Part shown: one piece after another, positions 41,780 to 56,100 of the stretch
Layout of the letters: each line of letters starts with the position of its first letter
Position numbering within the stretch: the stretch's first letter is position 1
Assembly (NCBI GenBank): GCA_036320915.1
Contig: JAXBDG010000007.1
Coordinates: forward strand, 2,604,001-2,668,000
Direction of reading: 5' to 3'
From: Linnemannia elongata
Lineage: Eukaryota; Mortierellomycota; Mortierellomycetes; Mortierellales; Mortierellaceae
Length of the DNA: 64,000 nucleotides
The notes under the pieces: model-generated
Database searches by the model: none
Seen by the model: the letters and a program-made list of their open reading frames with translations, nothing else
Told to the model about the DNA's origin: nothing
Made by a program: the position numbers and the translations under genes

Positions 41780-43018
41780 ATGGTTTCACGGGCATGCTCC
41801 TGGTAATCTATCCCTCTACTTCTTCCCCTTGCTTGTCGTCATCCCGCACTAGTGCTTAGCGAGATCATTCAGCCGAATTATCCTTTTCTCCTCGGCTTCC
41901 TTCCCTATTTCTCCACTTTTGCTCCTGGCGCGTAAAATGCTTCATCGCATTGACAAACTATCAAGAAGAAAAACGCGCCCACAACCAATACATTTCCCCG
42001 CCCACAACCACACTACTTGGGTCCTTCTCCTCCTGAAAAGAAAAATCAATTGCCGAGGAAAGACGAGTAATAGGAGAATAAGCCTGCGACAAGAGGAGTA
42101 GCAGCAGAGGAAGTAGACTAACAAACACAATAACAACCCGGGAGAGGTTACAAAGCACGCAGTTTACTCATCGTGCCTTTTTTTTATGGTATACTTTTCC
42201 AAGGAGTAGAATAGTGAGAGGTATGGAATGGAAGGAGTAGAGAGCGAGCAGTAAGGAAAAGGGTGGCAAAAATGCGCGTATGGAGACAAGTCTTTTTTCT
42301 TGCCTTGAGGCATTGCTATCAAGCCGAAAAGTGTTGATTAGGGACGTTGCCAGATCATGACATGTACGCCTCCGTTTCTATTATGTCGTCTTCGTTCGTA
42401 CAACAACATCACATACAAAGGAGAGAGATAAACAACGGAGTAATGGCGCATCTATTATCTTCCCACTGCCTGTAACAAACGGCGTGCGTACGGAGCAAGT
42501 TGAAACAGTTTTTGGATGACGCGGTTCACAAAAAAAGGAGAGAGACAGTTCATATCCTAATATTCTTTCACTTCATTTTACTTCGTTTGTGAAATGGGGT
42601 GATAAAATAAAAGGCGCACAAAAAACTTAAGGAACGGTATTCTATGGACGAATGCGCATGGATCGACCTTCATCTCTTTATATTTCTATGACGATGTGCG
42701 TTGCCTCGCGAAAGAAAGGAGATGCTAGTAGATGCTATGGCATATGTATATAATCTCACGGTAGGTCAACTCACTATCGCCTACCATCTACATCTCTATG
42801 TATCTATCTGCTCTCCCTTATTTCTCTCCGATACCTCCTGCATCTGGAAAAGAGAGACGCTAGGATCTCCTTTTCCTCGGTAAAAACAATGTGCTTTTTC
42901 CACAAACCTTCTTTTTTCTTCCTTCCGCAATGACAGCAAGAGATATGCCGCGTCTGGGCGTGGCAGTAGTGTCTCCAAACCCTCCATACGAGCCTTCGTT
43001 TTAGTATCCGATGGCTGG

Positions 43019-43028
43019 TAGGGTACTC
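43019..43028 (+). promoter_or_regulatory. TAGGGTACTC motif, distal site of ZIP gene 1
   Basis: Lies 1,243 bp before the ATG at 44262. Context GGCTGGTAGGGTACTCC shares its 5' flank with the sites at 43861 and 52312. Confidence 0.5.
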
Positions 43029-43801
43029 CTTTTGTCTTTACCGGGCGTAACTGACAAAACTGATAGGTGTACTGTCCACACCATATTCACACGCGAGTTG
43101 TCGAGTCTAGAAGGTCTTTTCTTACTGTACTACTGATGCTATCCCCCCTAAAGATGCGGCGGGTCGTTACCCTTTTTGCACAGAGTGTTGAGTAATACGA
43201 AAAGGTACCCATTCGATCCACTCCTTCCTGTATTACACGATGATTGACCATTGGTTGTTTATCTGCTAGAAATTGCATCCCCGACGAGTACGAGTCGCCT
43301 TTTTGTGCAATCCTTCCAAGGAAAAATTGTGAATGGAGCTCATTTCTCTTCATTCTAGACTTTTGTCTAGTAGTATCCAGCATCCTTGCCTTTTTTCGAT
43401 GAGGGGACTGGAAGCATTAGTCAGATCGACCATTGGGATGAGACAGAGGAGTATGGTTCCTGGAGAGTGAGTGTTTCAGAGAGAGAAAAAGAAGACAATC
43501 AATGACAACGATGACAGAGAGAAGGGAGTGAGTGAGTCGTAGCCGTTTGAAGAAAGACAATTGCTGACCATAACAGGCAATCCAAAAGAAAGAAAAGGCT
43601 ATCAGTTCTCTTATCAAGTCACCTGTTGGGGGTGAGTGAACAGTTGTGTTTGGCCAAGTGTTCAGTGTTCAGTGTTCAATGCGAGTAAGGTGAGGGTCCA
43701 TTCTCAGCGAAACAGGAACAAAGAAAAGAAAAGAAAGACGACACCGGCGGTTGAAAATAACGCCATGAACAGTGGACAATCAAGGTTTCATGAATGACCT
43801 C

Positions 43802-43811
43802 TAGGGTACTC
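43802..43811 (+). promoter_or_regulatory. TAGGGTACTC motif, proximal site of ZIP gene 1
   Basis: Lies 460 bp before the ATG. It forms an inverted pair with the site at 43861, with 49 bp between them. Confidence 0.55.
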
Positions 43812-43860
43812 ATTTCTTCTTATTCTTGCTCATTTGGGTGGCCACTAATTGGCTGTAAAC

Positions 43861-43870
43861 GAGTACCCTA
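43861..43870 (-). promoter_or_regulatory. TAGGGTACTC motif, inverted proximal site of ZIP gene 1
   Basis: Reads GAGTACCCTA on the plus strand, about 400 bp before the ATG. The extended match CTGGTAGGGTACTC is identical to that at 52312. Confidence 0.55.
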
Positions 43871-44261
43871 CCAGTCACCACTGTGGCTTCATCCTCGTTT
43901 GTTTTCTCCGCACGTTTTGTCGAGAAAGGTGAGAAGGGTGAGAAAGGAGCACAGTGCACCCAATCCGCCATCTCTTGATGATCCCCTGTGTCTCTGCCAA
44001 CCAACAATTTCCAGAGCCAAAAAACATATAAATTGATGGCCGAGAAGGTACTTTTGTTTATTTCTCCATCATCGTCTTTTCCTCGGTAATCCTCCTCCCC
44101 TTCTCTTCTGTTCTCTTACCGACAAATCAATCCTCACCTCTTTGTCAACCTTCTTTTTTTTTTTTCCTCTCTTAATACTCCTTCCTCCTCCTCCATCCGC
44201 TCATTCTACTCTCACTCCCCCACACCCTCTTTTTTACTCACTCATACAACTAACCATTACA

Positions 44262-46126
44262 ATGAGGTTATCACTCCCTTGCAGGATCACCGCTCTCAGC
44301 GCTGTTATCCTCCTCGCCACTCTCGTCCCTTCCACCCTTGCTCAGGACTCGGCTCTCATTAACGACAACAACAACATCATCAACAGCGGTCCTGAACACT
44401 ATAATACCTTCCCCAAGCGTGCCGGAGAAGACGACCACGATCATGACCATGACCACCCTCCCGCAACAACAACCACAGTCGCCTCTGTCGCCCCTGGTGC
44501 CACTTTTACTTCCTCAGGTGCTATCACCAACCCAACTGCTACCACTGTACCACCCCCTCATGATCACGATCACGACCACGACCATGATCATGACCATGAC
44601 CATGCCCACGACGACCACGATCATGCCCATGAGGAGGAGGGCCATGAGGGCCATAACCACGACCACTCGGAAGAAGCTGAGGCCGGCCATTCTCACGGAC
44701 CCGCTCGGTAAGTTAATTGTTTTCGTTCATTTTCTCCTTTGAACACAGAAATGCGTGTGCACAGTTTGCCATCCTCCTTCCCCTCCAATCCAATCCAAAT
44801 CCAAAATGCAATCCATCCAATCCCTTACATCGTCCAATCGATAAAGATCTTTATTCCCTTATGACTCTCAGACCCTCCAATCATCCCTATCACATAATCA
44901 ACATCCACACCCACATCCATCGACAGCAGTAAACAACTTTTCCCTAACGAATGAAGAACTAACAACGAAGCATCTTCCTATCATCTCTTTTACTACAAAA
45001 TAGCACTTGCGAGGCGCACGATCACGATCACGGCGAGTACGTCGTATGGCACCACATCGTTGCCCTCATTGTCCTCATGATCGTCGCAGGCCTCGGCTGC
45101 GTCCTCCCCATGATGATCCGTGAGAACAACCGCACCCGCTTCGCCGTCCAACTTGGCAAATACTTTGGTGCTGGTGTTGTTCTCTCCGTCGCCTTTGTCC
45201 ACATCCTCCCCGAGGCCCTCTTTGCTCTCACCCACCCCTGCCTCTCCAAGGCTTGGACGGATGATTACCCCGGATATGCCCCCCTGATCATGATGATATC
45301 TGGTTTGACCATGCTCGTCATTGAGTTCCTTGCTTCTACCGTTGCTGTCAATGTTGAGGCTCAGAACAAGAAAGCTGCCGCTGCCACTCTCTCTGGCGGT
45401 GCCATCGAGGAAGCTCACGAGCAAGGACATGCTCATACTCACGACAAGGATCATCACCACCACCATCATGACGACTCTGACTCTGCCGAGTTCCGGGACC
45501 AAAAGTCTGGCGCCGCCCCCTATGTCCACCCCCTTGATGCCGCCGAGCCCAACACTCCCAAGCCTGCCCAACACTCCTCCTTCGAAGACACTGGCTGCAG
45601 CCACGCCCACGGTCTGGCCATCCTCGAATGCGGCCCCGGCGTCTCCACAAAAGTCTCAACCTACATGCTCGAACTCGGTATCGCTCTCCACTCCATCTTC
45701 ATCGGCATTGCCCTCGGTGTCCTCGCGGGTTCCGAGTTCCTCGCCATGACCATCGCCATCTGCTTCCATCAGTTCTTTGAAGGTGTCGCCCTGGGCTCCC
45801 GTATTGCCGACTTGACCTTCAAGAAGAAGTGGCTCCCTGTCGTCTTGGTCTTGATCTTTGCTCTCGTGACTCCCTTTGGTGTCGCCATCGGAATGGGCAT
45901 GCGGTCCGGCTACCGTGCCAACAGTGTCGAGAACTTGATCATCACGGGTATCTGCAACTCGATTGCCTGTGGTGTGTTGTTATACACGGCCTTTGTGACC
46001 CTGTTGGGAGGAGATATCTTGTACTCTGAGCGGTTCCGTGCCGAGTCGCGTCGTCATAAGGCGAGCTACTTGGTTGCTGTCTGGTTGGGTGCCCTTTCCA
46101 TGGCTGTCATTGCCCTTTGGGCCTAA
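44262..46126 (+). CDS. ZIP-family zinc transporter 1 (with signal peptide and His-rich ectodomain)
   Basis: Imports Zn2+ (possibly Fe2+) into the cytosol. Two exons (44262-44707, 45004-46126) joined inside an Arg codon give 522 residues. Residues 1-28 form a signal peptide ending in STLAQ. Residues 50-146 are an extracytosolic His/Asp domain with about nine consecutive DH pairs (100-115), a likely metal-capture region. ZIP core: HILPEALFAL in TM2-3, a variable loop with HAHTHDKDHHHHHH, then the metal-site helices HSIFIGIALG and HQFFEGVALG. This resembles the Zrt1/Zrt2 type. ATG 44262 is chosen because the earlier in-frame ATG lies in the CT-rich leader and would precede the signal peptide. 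An AATAAA follows at 46275. It probably shares regulation with the second ZIP gene through TAGGGTACTC. Confidence 0.95.
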
Positions 46127-46274
46127 TTCTTCTTCTTCTTTGCTTTTAGAATTGCCCTACTCCCCTATATTTGTATATTTTTTCTCTTCTCTTTCTCATC
46201 CATCTAAAACCCTTTCATAATAGTCTTGCATATTCTCTCACCCATCCTTAAAAATCATAGTAGTAGCTTGTAAG

Positions 46275-46280
46275 AATAAA
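46275..46280 (+). terminator. Candidate polyadenylation signal (AATAAA) of ZIP gene 1
   Basis: Canonical hexamer 149 nt after the stop codon; cleavage site not determined. Confidence 0.4.
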
Positions 46281-46569
46281 TCGCACGAAGACCGTCGACT
46301 CTCGAGTCGATCATATAACCCATAACTCTAAAGAGACGTTGTCAATTGACCCACTTTCTCTCTTGATGACTGAAGAAAAACAGCATGCGCTCCTTCAAAA
46401 AAAAAAGTAACAAAAGATGTTGTTCCCCCAAAAGAAACATATCTTGCATAACCGAACGATCTTGGACCCCAATTGGTCTCAGGCTTTTTTTTTGCCATCA
46501 TTGTCTTTCACATCAGAACTTTGTCTCTTTGGGATTGTTTGGGACTTATGTTTCTGTTTTGTTTTGTGA

Positions 46570-47215
46570 GATGACGACGCCGCTATCAGTGGTGAGCTCA
46601 GGCACGAAACTCAAATGGTGGCCATCATTGGTCCACTAGAAAACATCTTCTTCAATGATCCTCGCGAAGAATCCCTGGTTCTGCAACAAGATATCGATGG
46701 CAAGATCCAAACATACCGTATCGTATCGTCCGAAGTACCTCATCTAGCTGTCATGTTATTCAAGGGAGGATTAGAACCACAGCCCGTGCTTGATCCTGAC
46801 AACCTGAACCAGTGGACCTTCGCAAAGAAGTAGAGTAGCTTGGTCTCATACTTATCGATCGGTGGTAATGGTGTGATTCAGGAACAAGGAACATCGATTC
46901 CTGAAGAGCAAAAAAGTGTATTGGCGTATCCCTTCTCAGGATGCAAGAGAAGGATACAACATGCTACCGAACAATATCCTTGGTTGCCTCTATTCCCACT
47001 CTAATTGTTAATTGCGCGACCTCTAGCATGATTTTCTTTTCTTGGACTTGTCTCTTGTACTCTGCTCTATGCCTAGGACCTTGCATGACCTTTGCTGGAG
47101 CACCTAGAACTGTTCTCAAGATCCCTCACGTTCGACGACGTTAGTTCTGCCAACACTGACCTCCACCAGCGATACCCGCAACCCGCGTACCTCACTATCG
47201 CCTCGCTCATGTGGT
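46570..47215 (+). pseudogene. Possible decayed gene fragment
   Basis: An open frame from 46570 (first ATG 46615) encodes a polar, non-repetitive peptide to a TAG at 46831. The same frame then stays open for another 55 codons to a TAA at about 47000. A different frame becomes open at about 47085-47215, with a leucine-patterned peptide (LEHLELFSRSLTF). Codon choice looks coding-like, but no family is recognised and there is no CT-rich leader. This fits a gene broken by a stop and a frameshift; it could also be chance. Confidence 0.3.
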
Positions 47216-48670
47216 AGATAAGAGACGCTTTACGCTGAAAGCAGGAGTAACTAAGCTTGCGAATAAAGAAGGCATTAACAGTGTTTTGACACCAAAAAAA
47301 ACGTGGGTGAATGTTTGTTTATTTCAAGGAATAACAAAATGGGTTCGTCGAATGCACAGACTGCAGTTTCCTTTTTCTCCCATTTCTCCCATTTCTCCTG
47401 AACCTTCATTCACTCTCATGCTTCCTTTTCTCCTTTTCCCTGTCTCTCCTCTCTCTCTCTGACCTCACACTCCTCCTAATGCTATTTTTCTTCTGCATGT
47501 CTTGAGTCGGACCTGAGAAAAAAAAAAGGCATTTGCATACACATGCACATACATATTCACAAGACAGATACAAATACAGTGGACAACGCATACATAAACA
47601 CAAATAATTGGCTTCTTATTTTTCCTTCCGTTCAACAAGGTGAATTTCTCCGATACTCCACCTCTTGCCTCGACTTGCCGAGTCCAGAAGGAGAAATGCT
47701 TTCTCCTCCTATTGAACGCCTCTGTTTCTTACACTTTTTCGTTATTGTTGTTGTTGTTTTTCTTTGTTGCATCGTTGTACGTGTGTCCTGTGGTGTCCCC
47801 CTTGCGTCTATGTCTTTATGGTTTGCATGGTTGCTATACTCACAGCGAGTTCTTTTCCTTTGGCAAGAGGAAGGACCTTGTACGTGGAAGAATACTGCCC
47901 ATGCCTCCTCCTGGTCCTTTTAGATTTTTGCATGATGTGTGTCGTGACTTCTAAAAAGGTCTGAGTAAACAACGTTTACACGCAATCCCTCACGGTGATA
48001 TACCTTTTTCCATTGCAAAGGAATGGCAGCCGAACACATAAGAGCATTGCATCAATTGAATGCGCACCTTCCAAAGACGGTCTTGTACACTGTCTCCTAG
48101 TGCATGCAAGACTAGGATGGCAGTCGATCTTTTCCAAATCTCTTGCTTGCCAGAGCCATAAAGCTGATAAGACATGTATCAAGATGAGATGAGTAAATAG
48201 TCACTGTTGAAAAACATTTAATGGCCTCCTCAATAGAACCAGTCCTTGTGGCCTACAAGACTCGACAACGTACCCATATGAAAGGAACGAACCATTTAGA
48301 TTCCCTTGGTGATGATTCCTACGTTTTCTGTTGGCTTTATCCACGTCGACCAGGACCTTTTCCATGGCCAATGAGTTTTGCGTTGGCGTTGAGTGTCAAT
48401 ACGAAATTCTGACTCGAATGTGTACTTGTTACTTTTCTTTTGCCACCAAATTTGCATCCGATGGGGGACTGTTTTCTCATTGCTTTAGCATTGGGATCCA
48501 ATCCTTCGCACTTAAATAGTCTTTCAGGATCTCACCCCTATCATTCCTCACTTCTTCTGTTCCATGACCATGTCGATCACCTTCTCATCCATTTATTCTT
48601 TATTTGTTTGTTGTCCCATCGTCTACGAAGGGAAAAACGAAAAGGCAAAAAGCAAATTCGATTAAGAGCG

Positions 48671-48697
<27 letters not shown>
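48671..48697. repeat. Poly-A tract (27 nt)
   Basis: Perfect A homopolymer in the gap between the ZIP genes. Confidence 0.95.
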
Positions 48698-48701
<4 letters not shown>

Positions 48702-48871
48702 ATGGCAACAAATGAAGAGCCGGCTTACATTGGCAATAAGGCGCGTTTCTTTGAAAGACTGCAGCATTTGTGGGCAGGGTTAACAACGTCTATTTTATAT
48801 ACTGTGACCAACTCGAACATGGGAATACGACCCATTGTTTCCGGGCTATGTTTGAGGGCTTGCCCAAGGCC

Positions 48872-48900
48872 TCGATAAAGGTCGATAAAGGTCGATAAAA
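48872..48900. repeat. Decamer tandem repeat (three near-copies of GGTCGATAAA)
   Basis: The first copy has CTCGATAAA in place of GTCGATAAA; the third runs into an A tract. Confidence 0.85.
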
Positions 48901-49734
48901 AAAACAGATGGCGGATTCAGGTTTGCAAAGGCCTATGAACAGTTTTCAGATCTCGAAGATATTTTTCGGATATCAGGATTTGTAGGATCCTGCCTCTTCC
49001 TTCAGCAAAGTTCAGTGAATCAAAGCCATGATTTCAGACGCCACATTGAAGGAGAGTACTGTAACTTGTACGGCTGCAACGAGTCAGTGTCGTGTTTCTT
49101 TATCGTTGACCTCAGAATCATGGCTACGTTCGGTGACAGCGAGGGGTTTCTTTCTCATCGTATGTGTTTTTTAATGTCGACGCGGTCGTTTGTTCAAGTT
49201 TTGCAAATGAGTTTTTAAATATTGCAGTACGGCATCCTTTGTGCTTACGTGAGAGTTATGCCAACGAGTTTTTATGTTTGGGATGTTAAAGGTTTTGTTG
49301 TACGATATGATTGTCGGGGGGGAAAGCGAGAGAAGGAGAGATGTTGGTTCGTTCGGGTCGCGCAATCTTTTTTATTCACAACTTTTCAAATTCCACACTT
49401 ATCTACTAAAGGGCGACGACATCTTCAGTCGTTAACCTTGCGACCAACTTTTTTTTTTTTTTTACTCTTTTGCACTTCATGTCTCCTTTGCTGATCACGA
49501 TGCCCCTTCTTAGCCACACCCATCACACCATTAGAAAAAAAAATACATGTCCCTGTCTGAAGTACACCTCTAGGTACTATCTCAATCCCTTTTGATCCAA
49601 GAGATCTTTTTTTTTTTATGCATTAGTTGACTATGTAGAAAAGATGGTAGATGATAGATGGTGGGAAAAAAAAGAAATAATGATGACGAAAAACACATCT
49701 GCAGAGTGGTGGAAGGAACAAGCGAGACAAAGAT

Positions 49735-51141
49735 TTAAGCCCACTTGCCAACAATAGCCATGGCAGCAGCACCAAACCAAAGCGCCAAAAACTGGACAAC
49801 CTGACTCTTGGGGCTCGCCTCTCTGAACGCAACATTCGAGTTGATCTCCGTCGACATCAACTGGACTAAGGCCGTGTATAACAAGATTCCGGCCGAACAG
49901 GCATCGAACACACCCTGGACAATCAACGACGTGACACTCTCGCCCTCGTACGTCGACCGGATACCGATCCCGATCGCCATACCCAGAGGGGTTGAGCATG
50001 CAAACCAGGCCGAGAGTAACCAGGGCTGGAGGGAGGACCGCTTGAATTGGAGGGAGGCGATTCGGCCACCAAGGGCGACGCCTTCAAAGAACTGGTGGAA
50101 GAGAAGGGCGATCAGGAGCGATACAAACTCTGTGCCGACGGTAGTTCCGAGGGTGATGCCGATGATCACAGAGTGCAATGCGATGCCGAATTCGAGGATG
50201 TAGGTGCCAATCTCACGAGATCGTTGTTCTTGTTGCGAGGAGGAGGACAAAGTCTTGTTGGAATCGTGGCCGTGGCCGCTATGGTTATGCTCACCGTCGC
50301 TGTGGTGGTGTGGATGGAGGTGCTGGTTCTGGTGTTGGCTCTTGTTGTTCTTGTTCACTAGTAAGATTTCTCCACCATGAACATGACCCATATGCAAGCA
50401 ATCCTCCGGCTTGGCCACCAACCCATCTACAGCAGCAACAGTGCCGACAGCGTACCCATGACGGCCCTCCTCTAAACTCCCAGCATCCTCCGAAACCACT
50501 CTCTTCTTCTCGGACTGCCCGGCGGTAACATCATCCTCATCGGAATAAATCACACTCAACCGATCAATCGCATGCACATCCCCACCACTCTTCTTGCTAC
50601 CCTTCTTGGACTGACTGTAGAACCGCTGGGTAGCAGTGTACTCGAGCAATTGCAACAGCATGGCCGAGACCATGGCGATCAAACCAGCCCAGCCAGTGTA
50701 TCCCGTGTCTTCTTGAAAGATTTCTGGGAGACTCGGATCGGATAGGTTACTGAATGCTGTAGGGAGCATGTGGATGAAAGCCGTGGCCAGGATGACGCCA
50801 GAACCGAAGGTGCGAGCGGTTTGGATGACACTGTGGATCTTGGATGTCGTTTGAGCGTTGAACGTTGTGTATGCGAACAAGATCGGCAACAGCACTGTTC
50901 AAGAGCATGAGAGGGGAAGGAAAAGAGACAGAGATGACGGCAGTAGGCAAGTTGATTAGTTTAGTTTCTGAAATGAATACAGGCAAAAATAAAAATAAAA
51001 AAACAAGAGAACAAAAGAAAGGAAATGGGTGAAAGACATACCACCAAAGGAACTGGCGGCCATGTTGGCGAAGAGGCCTCCGATGTGGAGACCCAGGTTG
51101 TAGTCTTCTATGGTAGGGGTGTCTGTCGAGTTGTCTGCCAT
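49735..51141 (-). CDS. ZIP-family zinc transporter 2
   Basis: Two exons (51141-51042, 50894-49735) give 419 residues. The N-terminus is short (TIEDYNLGLHIGGLFANM), with no signal peptide and no His-rich ectodomain, unlike the neighbouring ZIP protein. Core motifs: FIHMLPTAF in the third membrane segment, a cytosolic loop with HHSDGEHNHSGHGH, then HSVIIGITLG and HQFFEGVALGGR, the metal-binding helices, and a C-terminal IVGKWA. It resembles fungal plasma-membrane Zrt proteins. The intron (147 nt) lies inside the first membrane segment, splitting a Val codon. The gene converges on the first ZIP gene. The two proteins differ in ectodomain and intron position, so this is not a recent tandem duplicate. 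Upstream lie two TAGGGTACTC motifs. Confidence 0.95.
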
Positions 51142-51546
51142 TTTTATCGTTATGCGTTGAACAAGTGAAGAATGAAATGACAGGAAAGGAGAACTAGGGA
51201 TAAAAAGAAGGGATGAAGGGGGGGGAAGCAAGGAGATGGAGAAAGGAAAGGGAGAGATGTGTAAAAGAAGTGATAAAAGGGAGAGAGGAGACGCGTCTGT
51301 AAGGTAGGAAAGGTGATAGATGATATTTTGAAAGGTAGAAAAGAAACAAAGTGCACCTTGTCTATAATGAGAAGAGATAGAGAAAAGAAAAGAAGACGAT
51401 AGGGTCAAACAAAATGCGGGAAGGAAGTATGGTTTATATAGACGCAAAGGATAAACGGAAAAAAGGCGTGAGAGGAAAGAGGGTTAATGTGGATAAGACT
51501 CAGGATGGAGGACAGTGAGGACCCTAGGGGTTGCGGCCATGGCTTG

Positions 51547-51556
51547 TAGGGTACTC
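51547..51556 (+). promoter_or_regulatory. TAGGGTACTC motif, proximal site of ZIP gene 2
   Basis: Lies about 406 bp before the ATG of the minus-strand ZIP gene, the same distance as the proximal sites of ZIP gene 1. Confidence 0.55.
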
Positions 51557-51946
51557 ACTTGTTCCTCTGTTGGACGGGACATACCCCTAATCCCTTACTT
51601 CTGCCTTAGTCATAAATGGCGAATTGCGCGCGGGCTTGGAGAAGAACGAACGGTCCAGACACAACAGACACCCTTTTTGTAGCGAACGAGGAAAAATAAA
51701 ATAAAATAATAACACCCTCAGTGGGAAATGTAAACATCGGAGTTGTCCTCCCCATGAGCTTCGGAAGTACCTCTAGTGAAGGAAAAGAGATGAAGAAATG
51801 GAAGCACTAAGAAACGAGAACACTTTATCCCTCTTCCTGCTTACTTTTTTTCATCTTCCACCGCGAATTTACATGTTCAGTCCATGCCATCAATCGAACC
51901 CTCTGCTATCAATGCCAACGATAGATACAACTGTATGTAAACGTAG

Positions 51947-51974
51947 AAAAAAAAAAAAAAAAAAAAAAAAAAAA
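51947..51974. repeat. Poly-A tract (28 nt)
   Basis: Perfect A homopolymer between the two TAGGGTACTC sites upstream of ZIP gene 2. Confidence 0.95.
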
Positions 51975-52311
51975 GAAAAGATCGAACGCACTTCCGGCGT
52001 ACATTGTCTGCACATCTATAATCCGTTTACTCCTTATCCTGACGAGCGCCGTCGATCTTGCATCTCACCAACTCCCAACGGACATCTCACTCTGCATTCT
52101 ACGCCATACTTTTTCTTATCATCCCTTTCTTCATTCCATGGTCCGAAGTACAACAAGTACCCTTCACAGTCTCACACTTCCCAAAATGGCATCGTTGTTC
52201 CCTCTACCAAAGAAACATTAGGCAAAAGCAGACCCACATGGACAAGCACAACCTCCAAACTACGCTGTCGTTGCTCGTTTATGGATGTCAGAGACAAACT
52301 TCTGCAACTGG

Positions 52312-52321
52312 TAGGGTACTC
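52312..52321 (+). promoter_or_regulatory. TAGGGTACTC motif, distal site of ZIP gene 2
   Basis: Lies about 1,171 bp before the ATG of ZIP gene 2. Context ACTGGTAGGGTACTCATTTT; a partial inverted copy (GATACCCTC) follows within 20 bp. Confidence 0.5.
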
Positions 52322-52688
52322 ATTTTCTGATACCCTCTTGGCTGTTGGACACTTTGGATACTTTGGACACATCCAAATGGGTAAAATAATGCCTCATGGG
52401 CCAACAACGAGTGTTACTTTTTTCAACGTCCGAACGATAATGAACACTTGCGCCAAGTGCTCTCCTCTTCCTTTCTCGCTGAGTCTTCCAATCCATCGCT
52501 TTTCTTCACCCACGCTTCAATATGTAGCGATTGAGAAAGACGACAAACAAAGCAGGATATACGCCACACTAAGTATTTATCCTCTACCCGTCAGAGAAAT
52601 AGGAGACGAACATCACGATCGAAACGGGGGGGAGAGTATAACAAGCAAAAAGGAGTAACATACAGACAAGCTCTGCCTGGACATCTCA

Positions 52689-52690
<2 letters not shown>

Positions 52691-52721
<31 letters not shown>
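52691..52721. repeat. Poly-T tract (31 nt)
   Basis: Perfect T homopolymer between ZIP gene 2 and the bromodomain gene. Confidence 0.95.
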
Positions 52722-53138
52722 CCTGCTTCCCTCATCACTACTAGCCTCCAATGCCTGCTTTTCGCATCTGTGGCCTCGGGATAAAAAAAAACAAATCCTC
52801 TCCACGTTTCCACACATGCCTCTTCTTCCAGCCGGCTTCATGCACGTCCCTGCAGAGGAAAATAATGAACTCGCCGCGGAATTGCAACTCACGATCATTC
52901 TTGTCTTTGTTGTGCTTCGGTTCACTATTTATTATTATTTGAGGGGCTGTTTTACATTCGTTTTTTACAATTGGGGGGAAAAAAGAAGAAAGAAGGAAAG
53001 AAAAAAAGCATTGGAACGGGAAAGAAAGAATGAAGGAATGAAAAAGAAATCAAAAAGAAGAAAAAAATGGAGGATGGAATGAGAGTAGAACAAAAAAAAA
53101 TGAGAGGAGAAAGGTTGTAATAACAAAGATCCGAGCAT

Positions 53139-56100
53139 CTAGGGTGATGATCCAGGCGACGAAAGTGAAGACGCAGATCCTTCTCTCTCAGCGGAAGCAG
53201 CTACTGCTACTTCTGGGTTTGATTTCGACAATGCCACTGGTTCAGGGGCTGGTGTTGCAGCAGTAGACTCGGCGTTTGGCGCTGATGAGGCTGCCAAGGG
53301 TTGAGCCGCGGCAGTTTCTGTCGTCGTGGAGGTGTTCAATGGCGCCATAGCGGTCGCTGTCAATGCTGCTGTCGAGTTTGAGGGCGCTTTTGCCTCCGTC
53401 ACCGCTGGGGATGACAGTGCTGGCGTAGCAACGGATGTGGGCATGGGTGCGGGTGCCTCCGTTGCCTGTGCTGTTGTTGTTGCTGTTGTTGTTGTTGGTG
53501 CTGGTGTGGACAGAGCAGAAGGAGGTGTGGTTGTTGTAGGAACTGCCATCGCGATAGGTGTAGTGGGTGCAGTGGGTGCAGCGGCTGTAACAGAAGCGTT
53601 CTGTGAGGTGGCAGGAGTGACGACGGCTGAACTAGATGCAGTGATAACTGGAGAGGCAGTCGGTGCAGGAGTCGGTGAAGCAGCAGCAGGTGTGACCACG
53701 GCAGGGGTGGCGGGAGCAGCAATTGATGCAGATGCAGCAGATGTAACACTAACAGGCACGGCAGCAGCAGGTGTAGGCGTGACAGACGCAGGCGTAGGGA
53801 CAGGAGGAGCGGGTGGTGGTGGGAGTTTTTGGGCATTGATCTCGGAGAGAGGGACATACTTGGCCATCTCTGCAAGTCGCTCGCGGATGCTCTTGGTCAG
53901 TCGCTGCACCAGGGCCTTGTCATCATCAGATAACGTGACCACCTCCACATCCTTGTCCTTGACAGCTTTACGCTTGTCCTCGGCGGTCGTGCTCTCAGCG
54001 GTACCCTCTGAGAGTACCTTTGCTGCCTGGCCCTCAGCGGTCTTGGCTGCAACCAGTTCAACCACCTTCCGCATGTCGGCCGAGTTCTTCTCGAGAGACT
54101 CTCGGACCCACTTCTTGCTCTCCTCCGAATCTCCGCCCGTCCAGCTCTGGCCCCACTCGATCTTGACTTTCTCGTCCGCTGGTGCCAGTGGTAGAAGACT
54201 ATCAAGTTCGATCTTCAACTGTTTCCAGCTTTCATAATCGGCCTTGACCTTCTGCACCTGGGGCCACGCTTTGATATCACGCACGACCTGTCGAATGTCA
54301 ATCATTTCTGGCTCCGCCTGGCTCGGCGTCATGCGTACACCCGGTTTCTCCTCGCTCCTCTGGTTTTTGACACATTGCTGCGAGTCAGACTTCTCCTCGC
54401 TCTTGACTTCAGCGTCCTTGAGCTCGACATCAGCGGCGGTTGTAGTGGCTGTGGCTTCTGCTTCTCCTCCTTCTGATGGAACAATCGCATCTTCCATGAC
54501 CACATCCTCTGGCTCCGTCGGCTGGTCAATCTGCATATCTTGACTGTTGTCCTTGGGAATGTCCTTGTTCGCTCCGACCTTCTCCTCCAATGGGGCTAAG
54601 GTTGTGGTGGTCTCAGTTGCATCGCCCATTTCGGTATCGAAATCCTGCTTCCAGATTGCCTTGGGAACGCGAGTGTCTACGTCCGAAGATTGACCCGTCT
54701 TTTCCTCCAACACAATGGCTGCCACCTTGTCAGCAATCGTGCTGGCTCCCCGAGTCAGTTTCTCGACCTTCTTGCGAATGTACTCCTTGACCTGCAAGAG
54801 ACCCGCGGCATCGGATTCCGTCATCTGCGAGACCTCGTTGTCATCGACGATACCTTCCATGAACATGGCAAGACTTCTGACATAAGCCTCGCCAGTGTCG
54901 TCTCCAAAGACCATTCCTGTGAAGACTGGGAGGCTCACACTGGAGGATCCATCGGTCTCGACAGGAGACTTGTCCATGACCGCATACGGCCCATAGTCGA
55001 GATAGCCTGCCGGACGAGAGCCAACGGTGGGTGGTTTCCAATAGGGGTAGTCGTCGAGATATTGCCCGTTGTAGGAGGAGTTGGTATCGAGGAGCGGGCG
55101 TAAGGAAGGCGGTGAACCAAATTCTTGATGAACGGGGATGAGGGACCATGGGTCGGGATGAGACGCTGGGTCGATGGATCCGTCGGTGGCGTAGGTGAAG
55201 GCGATGGTTCCGTCTCTGCGGTGTTTAATTTTCTTTGTCTTTCTGTACTGCTGTGGCGTGTGTGATCGACCAGAGTCTGCGATCGACATCGGCGACTATT
55301 GTCAGTAGGTATTCGGTATAGAACATTAATATTGCGGCATATTAGTGATTTGATCAAACAGCAACAAATATAGTGAGACAACATCACTACAAAAATATCA
55401 TCGTCATCATCATCATCTATCGTATCATTCAAATTACAGCGTATGTTTCAACCTCCGCAATCTGACATCATTTTCACTTACATCAACCGCTGACTCCACA
55501 CTCATAAACGATCCACGGCTCTGCAGCCCGTTCGCAGTTCCACCCCCGCCACTATTACCGCTATTAGCGCTGTAGTCGCCCATGCCGCCAACGTCAAGCG
55601 TCTCCTCATCCTTCACAGTCCGCAGAACTTCATCGTCCCGATCCAGAATAGTCTTGCGCTCACGTTCAATCGCACGAGACCCCCAATCCCAGAGTTTGTC
55701 CGCCTGTCTCCAATAAAGCGTCTCCTTGGCGTTGTACAGTCGCGCATTGTCGCAAACAAGCTGAAAGTCAGATAGGAACTCGTCGATCGTCGGGTAAAAG
55801 TTGCGCTCCACCTTTGACCGCATGGTTGAAAAGTCCATGGGGTTCTTGATGATGGTCGCATAATCCAGCACCACAGTAGGATCCACAGGCTGACTGAACA
55901 AGACGTACGAATCTCGTCTGCAGGTCAAGGGTGTTATAAAGATTGCGTTAATAAAGTAAACCAATGCGTTTATGGCTAGAAGTCAGACAATCCAACGCAT
56001 CGAAACTTACTTGATAAAGTTGTCTAGTAACTTGTGGCAGACAACGGAGAGCTCTTTCTTTTTCGGGATGACGGGTGTTGTCGTCTTGGGGGTCAAATTC

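Follow-up and report, generated by a model that had tools for sequence, protein, structure and literature searches.

Zinc regulons under activators of the Zap1/ZafA type have been described, in the literature excerpts considered here, from yeasts, Aspergillus and Cryptococcus. The A. fumigatus activator ZafA binds 5'-DYYVYCARGGTVYYY-3' (the zinc-response, or ZR, motif), which according to the available sections of PMC6070888 appears functional up to 1.2 kb from the start codon. The zinc-responsive element (ZRE) of yeast Zap1, given in these excerpts as ACCYYNAAGGT, tolerates any base where the ZafA motif has its first core C. In the available part of PMC2535606, ACCCTAAAGGT is a ZRE of the yeast genes ZRT2, ZAP1 and IZH1, and ZRT1, ZRT2 and ZRT3 are among the targets of Zap1; YKE4 occurs in that paper once, in a reference title, and ATX2 is absent from it. 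Here we analyzed a 64,000-bp stretch of Linnemannia elongata DNA (contig JAXBDG010000007.1, positions 2,604,001–2,668,000; the window), in which the decamer TAGGGTACTC occurs five times, upstream of two ZIP zinc transporter genes (ZIP A and ZIP B). Judged from their sequence, these five sites are very probably ZR elements of the Zap1/ZafA class, read by a Zap1-type activator under zinc shortage.

Sites upstream of the two ZIP genes

Coordinates are window positions, and C-numbers (e.g., C23) denote contigs of the 51.1-Mb, 32-contig assembly of which the window is a part. The exact decamer is found in the window at 43019 (+), 43802 (+), 43861 (−), 51547 (+) and 52312 (+). An exact search and the distances to the start codons bore out the first-pass annotation of this DNA, which had placed all five upstream of the two ZIP genes at about 0.4 and 1.2 kb. 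With orientation given relative to the gene, they lie at −1243 (+), −460 (+) and −401 (−) from the ATG of ZIP A (44262, plus strand) and at −1180 (−) and −415 (−) from that of ZIP B (51141, minus strand). The flank TGGTAGGGTACTC common to three of the five sites and the inverted pair formed by two ZIP A sites (A2 and A3, spacing 49 bp), both pointed out at first pass, are likewise seen in the sequence. The 9-mer AGGGTACTC was found at the six places previously reported; the chance expectation that accompanied it was 0.5, and 100 dinucleotide shuffles of the window gave a mean of 0.21 and a maximum of 2. The features are as follows, with agreement to the ZafA ZR motif given as matching positions out of 15.

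43011..43032, plus strand: candidate ZR element A1, ATGGCTGGTAGGGTACTCCTTT, about −1.24 kb from ZIP A; 13/15 to ZR.
43794..43815, plus strand: candidate ZR element A2, ATGACCTCTAGGGTACTCATTT, about −460 from ZIP A; its complement contains ACCCTAGAGGT; 13/15 to ZR, 10/11 to ACCYYNAAGGT.
43857..43878, minus strand: candidate ZR element A3, GTGACTGGTAGGGTACTCGTTT, about −400 from ZIP A, inverted relative to A2; 13/15 to ZR.
44027..44032, plus strand: TATA-like hexamer of ZIP A, about 150–230 bp downstream of A2/A3, by consensus match only.
44262..46126, plus strand: ZIP A gene, exons 44262–44707 and 45004–46126, His-rich ectodomain; Pfam Zip, E=1.8e-62.
49735..51141, minus strand: ZIP B gene, exons 51141–51042 and 50894–49735; Pfam Zip, E=6.5e-64.
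51433..51440, minus strand: TATA-like stretch of ZIP B, about 100–120 bp downstream of B1, by consensus match only.
51517..51531, minus strand: weaker ZR-like site ACCCCTAGGGTCCTC, inverted relative to B1; 14/15 to ZR.
51539..51560, plus strand: candidate ZR element B1, ATGGCTTGTAGGGTACTCACTT, about −415 from ZIP B, reverse relative to the gene; 12/15 to ZR.
52304..52325, plus strand: candidate ZR element B2, GCAACTGGTAGGGTACTCATTT, about −1.18 kb from ZIP B, reverse relative to the gene; 13/15 to ZR.

Both transporters are, as we take it, of the Zrt1/2 type. Between the two genes, at 46570–46830, there is a short open stretch (MVAIIGPLENIFFNDPREESLVLQQDIDGKIQTYR...), which may represent part of a gene or a gene in decay.

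The element in the genome and the genes beside it

In the 51.1-Mb genome the decamer occurs 42 times as compared with 70 for its reversed control, and it is therefore neither common nor a dispersed repeat; the first-pass annotation had named such a repeat as what would speak against its proposal. The 9-mer occurs 304 times, its reversed control 291 times. Thus, there is no enrichment of the short word by itself; the unusual point is that five of the 42 decamers stand before two ZIP genes. The probability that five of 42 fall inside the two 1.5-kb upstream regions is about 8e-16, a post hoc value that assumes an even spread. All 37 decamers outside the five were inspected, and at least 13 of them are contained in stop-to-stop frames no shorter than 200 codons.

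Agreement of the five window sites extends beyond the decamer to the 19-mer RCYKSTAGGGTACTCNYTT. We rejected the decamer as the unit, since 36 of the other 37 copies miss this 19-mer even at two mismatches; only the copy at C17:129064 fits, with one. Genome-wide, 34 matches to the 19-mer with up to two mismatches were found (36 for the reversed control). The five exact ones are the window sites, and three have a single mismatch: C1:824349, C12:3975214 and C17:129064. Of these, the first stands about 600 bp ahead of a ZIP gene, one already found independently of the motif, whose spliced product, a ZRT3/GufA-like protein of 687 aa, is 86% identical to a Mortierella hygrophila protein. The P value for one of the 29 outside matches lying upstream of a ZIP gene is 0.004, and for one of the three one-mismatch matches 4e-4; the 19-mer P values assume an even spread over the genome, and the 1.5-kb limit used for them was our choice. 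The second precedes another gene by 305 bp; the 130 residues read from the spliced product of this gene match Pfam Ecl1 (E=1.7e-10).

Because the C1 and C12 sites both carry A for G at one core position, the pattern was broadened after the fact to RCYKSTARGGTACTCNYTT, which has 72 matches with up to two mismatches as against 87 for the control. Besides the window, C1 and C12 sites there are 65 such matches, two of which precede the ZIP genes C30:584780 and C32:1139242, as against 0.0076 expected in the 1.5-kb upstream regions of the four remaining ZIPs (P=2.9e-5). In total, five of the seven ZIP loci found, namely ZIP A, ZIP B, the ZRT3-like gene and the C30 and C32 ZIPs, carry the element with 0–2 mismatches. 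The nearest sites are at about −180 to −600, or at about −930 for C32 if the later ATG is taken. A position weight matrix (PWM) and pattern scan of upstream regions showed the element to be absent at the ATX2-like and YKE4-like loci, where the best PWM scores were 1.3 and 2.5, respectively. These two ZIPs are presumably of intracellular types.

Prefixing RYN, read by eye from the nine sites then known, extends the pattern to the 22-mer RYNRCYKSTARGGTACTCNYTT. It has seven exact matches in 51.1 Mb (0.024 expected), one with one mismatch and 16 with two, the reversed control having 0, 1 and 17; at up to three mismatches the totals are 221 and 370, so that the excess is confined to the exact class. 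The seven are the five window sites, one site before the ZRT3-like ZIP gene and one before the Ecl1-family gene. The one-mismatch site, C14:649091, played no part in the choice of the RYN flank and is followed, after about 330 bp, by a second Ecl1-like gene. Both Ecl1-like genes begin with MDC..CAVCS, have an intron after residue 17 and carry the site on the gene's strand, at about −305 and −330. A homologue search with the first Ecl1-like protein returned two candidates, none at E≤0.01. For three of the 16 two-mismatch matches the gene was inspected: two precede the C30 and C32 ZIPs, and one a phosphatase gene.

The PWM was trained on the five window sites and compared with a background of 227 kb of loci picked for containing the decamer. 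It scored 26.4 at the ZRT3-like site and 25.2 at the first Ecl1-like site; the maxima were 18.0 in the background and 11.0 in the window outside 42700–53200. The C32 ZIP has a site scoring 14.1 and a second one of 12.5, 25 bp away, and the C30 ZIP a site of 12.7. Taken together, the motif derived from the window alone led to a ZRT3-like ZIP and an Ecl1-family gene and, once broadened, to another two ZIPs and one more Ecl1-like gene, which at the sequence level gives strong independent support to the zinc-element idea put forward at first pass.

Several other loci were noted in the course of these searches. The C17:129064 site lies about 370 bp upstream of a low-molecular-weight (LMW) phosphatase-like gene, possibly a further target and possibly a coincidence; in this locus (L039, C17:128074–130073) two AGGGTACTC sites in the same orientation, at 996 and 1113, precede the LMW-phosphatase/ArsC-like gene, with its ATG at about 1363. 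A decamer near an MSC2-like CDF gene reads as lying within the coding sequence of that gene. Loci L022 and L023 (C1:2440843 and C1:2460618) hold similar long frames 20 kb apart, each with a decamer in near-identical flanks, and such coding copies therefore inflate raw motif counts. Two genomic decamers lie in a palindrome at C30:2216722–2221721 (L051), with arms of at least 2.2 kb in which every 250-base block except the innermost is identical; it is either a recent inverted duplication or an assembly artefact.

A candidate activator and competing explanations

The Zap1 finger pair, confirmed against PDB 1ZW8 and used as a query, has matches at four places in the genome, and a single open frame at C23:786676–787155 contains two of these (best E=0.004). 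The region C23:786451–787450 encodes a Zap1-type protein with a His-rich region, two CWCH2 fingers and then at least five more fingers, the fifth being cut off; the helices, in array order, are NYDSLTT, QRQKAMR, EANIMAQ, ISGALTI and ESSNLT... We take the QRQK..R, ISGALTI and ESSNLT fingers to resemble those of yeast Zap1. Proteins of Linnemannia zychae and Mortierella sp. AD031 show 87–89% identity to it, and one further protein 100%; together with the M. hygrophila match above, these identities place the assembly among Mortierellaceae. One Choanephora protein (46% identity over 77%) is named ZAP1, the only one so named among the 120 homologues listed. Two regulators had been suggested at first pass. 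The Zap1 homologue has a plausible counterpart in this contig-23 protein; the C2H2 protein of the window was rejected, as it matches generic Pfam C2H2 models only and is not among the four places, so that nothing points to Zap1. In two close relatives the contig-23 array runs on with ESSNLTK and one more finger, RPDQLTR. The C2H2 recognition code, which we take to assign, from the C- to the N-terminal finger, GAG to RPDQLTR, nAC to ESSNLTK, no triplet to ISGALTI, A-N-C to EANIMAQ and GGN to QRQKAMR, would make the predicted readout line up with the element as 5'-GAG-TAC-CYT-ASM-RGY. No broadened-19-mer match with up to two mismatches was found near the contig-23 gene, more degenerate promoter sites being outside that scan.

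To place the element among described ones we scored ten sites, i.e., the five window sites and those of the ZRT3-like gene, the two Ecl1-like genes and the C30 and C32 ZIPs. They agree with the ZafA ZR motif at 12–14 of 15 positions, and 13 or more is reached by 0.1% of background 15-mers. The segments DYY, RGGT and VYYY fit in all ten, the A before RGGT in nine, V in seven and the fifth position in three. The complement starts with ACC(C/T)T in nine sites and with ACCTC in the tenth, and it agrees with the yeast ACCYYNAAGGT at 7–10 of 11 positions, the right half AAGGT being degenerate. In reverse reading, site A2 gives ACCCTAGAGGT, which differs by a single base from the yeast ZRE ACCCTAAAGGT. 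Because of this near-identity and the ZR match, the earlier opinion that the motif differs from described fungal zinc elements is not upheld: by sequence, the element is not of a new kind but belongs to the ZR class, as a relative of the yeast and Aspergillus zinc-starvation switches.

A number of observations weigh against this assignment. Any GGTACTC averages 11.7/15 to the ZafA ZR motif (77 background places), and the full ZafA hexamer CARGGT is not found, the first core base being C in none of the ten sites. The C30 and C32 ZIP sites are weaker (two mismatches), and in the decamer-holding loci 14 places reach 12.7 and six reach 14.1; the RYN flank was chosen with these two sites in view, and it is uncertain which start codon the C32 ZIP uses. 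The second Ecl1-like gene was not recognized by Pfam in the 61 residues read. No broadened-19-mer match (up to two mismatches) lies within 10 kb of five Ecl1 loci from a six-frame Pfam scan, which itself missed both site-linked Ecl1-like genes, probably because an intron splits the domain. CDF, PAQR/IZH and cobW matches likewise have none within 10 kb, and CDF, PAQR and cobW genes were therefore rejected as further targets. ZRC1, ZRG17 and IZH1, which belong to families without a site here, are Zap1 targets in yeast in the available part of PMC2535606. Targets unrelated to zinc may exist, since genes were read at three of the 16 two-mismatch 22-mer matches, and two one-mismatch matches of the broadened 19-mer, C27:2343311 and C30:128507, were left out. 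Finally, the names among the 120 homologues listed for the contig-23 protein are mostly generic, as are the C2H2 arrays that it matches best in the PDB.

Three other explanations can be considered. It is unlikely that the element, although zinc-responsive, is read by an unrelated factor (another C2H2 protein, a bZIP or a Loz1-like repressor) and resembles the ZR motif by convergence. Such a factor would fit a first core base that is never C, a Zap1 palindrome degenerate in its right half, NYTT and RYNR flanks conserved outside the 15-bp ZafA site, and a contig-23 protein whose binding is a prediction; however, the combination of a DYY flank on the 5' side with ARGGTACTC agrees with ZafA sites like ACTCCCAGGGTACTT from the excerpts available, and a Zap1-type protein with the finger helices named above is encoded. 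As for Loz1 of Schizosaccharomyces pombe, we take its response element to serve likewise in zinc-dependent control of ZIP genes, but to have another sequence and to be bound by a repressor.

Even less probable is membership in another regulon, one for iron, general starvation or stress, with the ZIP and Ecl1-family genes included by chance. In its favor, iron and manganese are also possible ZIP substrates, one more match precedes an LMW phosphatase gene, and genes were read at few of the weaker matches; moreover, the literature excerpts describe fission yeast Ecl genes as responding to several kinds of starvation, limitation of zinc or iron among them. Against this, the motif class is the zinc one, and the element-bearing ZIPs are Zrt1/2-like and ZRT3-like, as under yeast Zap1 (ZRT1, ZRT2 and ZRT3; PMC2535606, part available).

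Common descent, with promoters copied along with their genes or the decamer belonging to a repeat, is hardly credible and was rejected: ZIP A and ZIP B are indeed convergent, with 3.6 kb between them and sites at similar distances, but their proteins are 33% identical and their intron positions differ (in agreement with the earlier view that they are not recent duplicates), beyond the motif their 2-kb promoters share only short matches (up to 24 bp; best E=0.002, equal to the motif's own), those inspected being low-complexity, the decamer has only 42 copies in the genome, and the same motif recurs at the unrelated Ecl1-family genes.

Proposed regulation and comparison with Zap1 and ZafA systems

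We infer binding by the contig-23 protein, the sign of the regulation and its dependence on zinc, as follows. Low zinc would free the Zap1-type activator to bind the ~22-bp element: at ZIP A the inverted pair (about −400 to −465), and at ZIP B site B1 together with the weaker inverted site, in both cases upstream of the TATA-like boxes. It would then raise the four Zrt1/2-like uptake ZIPs (two in the window, C30 and C32), the ZRT3-like vacuolar exporter, leading to release of vacuolar zinc, and the two Ecl1-family genes. In zinc-replete cells the activator would be silenced by the zinc that it binds, as happens in yeast.

The Ecl1 protein of fission yeast binds zinc and is linked to zinc-limited lifespan and TORC1 inhibition (PMC11984688, in the part available). 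We give even chances to the bolder hypothesis that in Mortierellomycotina the Ecl1-family TORC1 inhibitors are under the direct control of a Zap1-type regulator, by way of an enlarged 22-bp ZR element; a single element would then answer zinc shortage with both zinc uptake and an arrest of growth. The extra C-terminal finger RPDQLTR of the two close relatives could read the longer footprint, with the GAG block as its predicted contact. ECL1 is absent from the main texts of PMC2535606 and PMC6070888, and Zap1 control of ECL1 is not stated in the available passages of two of the three papers that mention Ecl1, Zap1 and zinc. Likewise, the titles and abstract beginnings among the literature matches listed contain no zinc-responsive promoter motif in Mucoromycota. 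Thus, as far as these matches reach, the class of the element is known, and what is new is that it occurs in Mortierellomycotina and in exactly this form, that its core never begins with C, that its footprint is 22 bp, and that Ecl1-family genes are predicted to be direct targets. The Zap1/ZafA zinc regulon would thereby reach an early-diverging soil fungus, and the 22-mer is rare enough (seven exact copies in 51 Mb) to predict regulon members from sequence. If the Ecl1-family genes are direct targets of the zinc activator, as predicted, zinc status would be tied to TORC1.

Comparison with the known systems reveals that: (i) the Linnemannia element resembles the ZRE ACCTTNAAGGT of S. cerevisiae Zap1 in its ACCYT left half, used in the yeast ZREs ACCCTAAAGGT and ACCTTAAGGGT (PMC2535606, part available), and its predicted targets likewise include Zrt1/2-like and ZRT3-like genes, but it is not palindromic and adds a conserved GAGT block and an A/T-rich flank; (ii) with the ZafA ZR motif (PMC6070888, sections available) it shares the DYY flank, RGGT (R, G, G and T of the core ARGGT in all ten sites, the A in nine) and VYYY, the presence of multiple copies in the ~1.2 kb preceding ZIP genes and an encoded Zap1-type regulator; while (iii) it differs from that motif in its first core base (T in eight of the ten sites, G in one, A in one), in position 5 (G in seven and C in three; Y in ZafA), in the further conserved RYN and NYTT flanks and in the Ecl1-family genes among its predicted targets, Ecl1 having no occurrence in the main text of PMC6070888.

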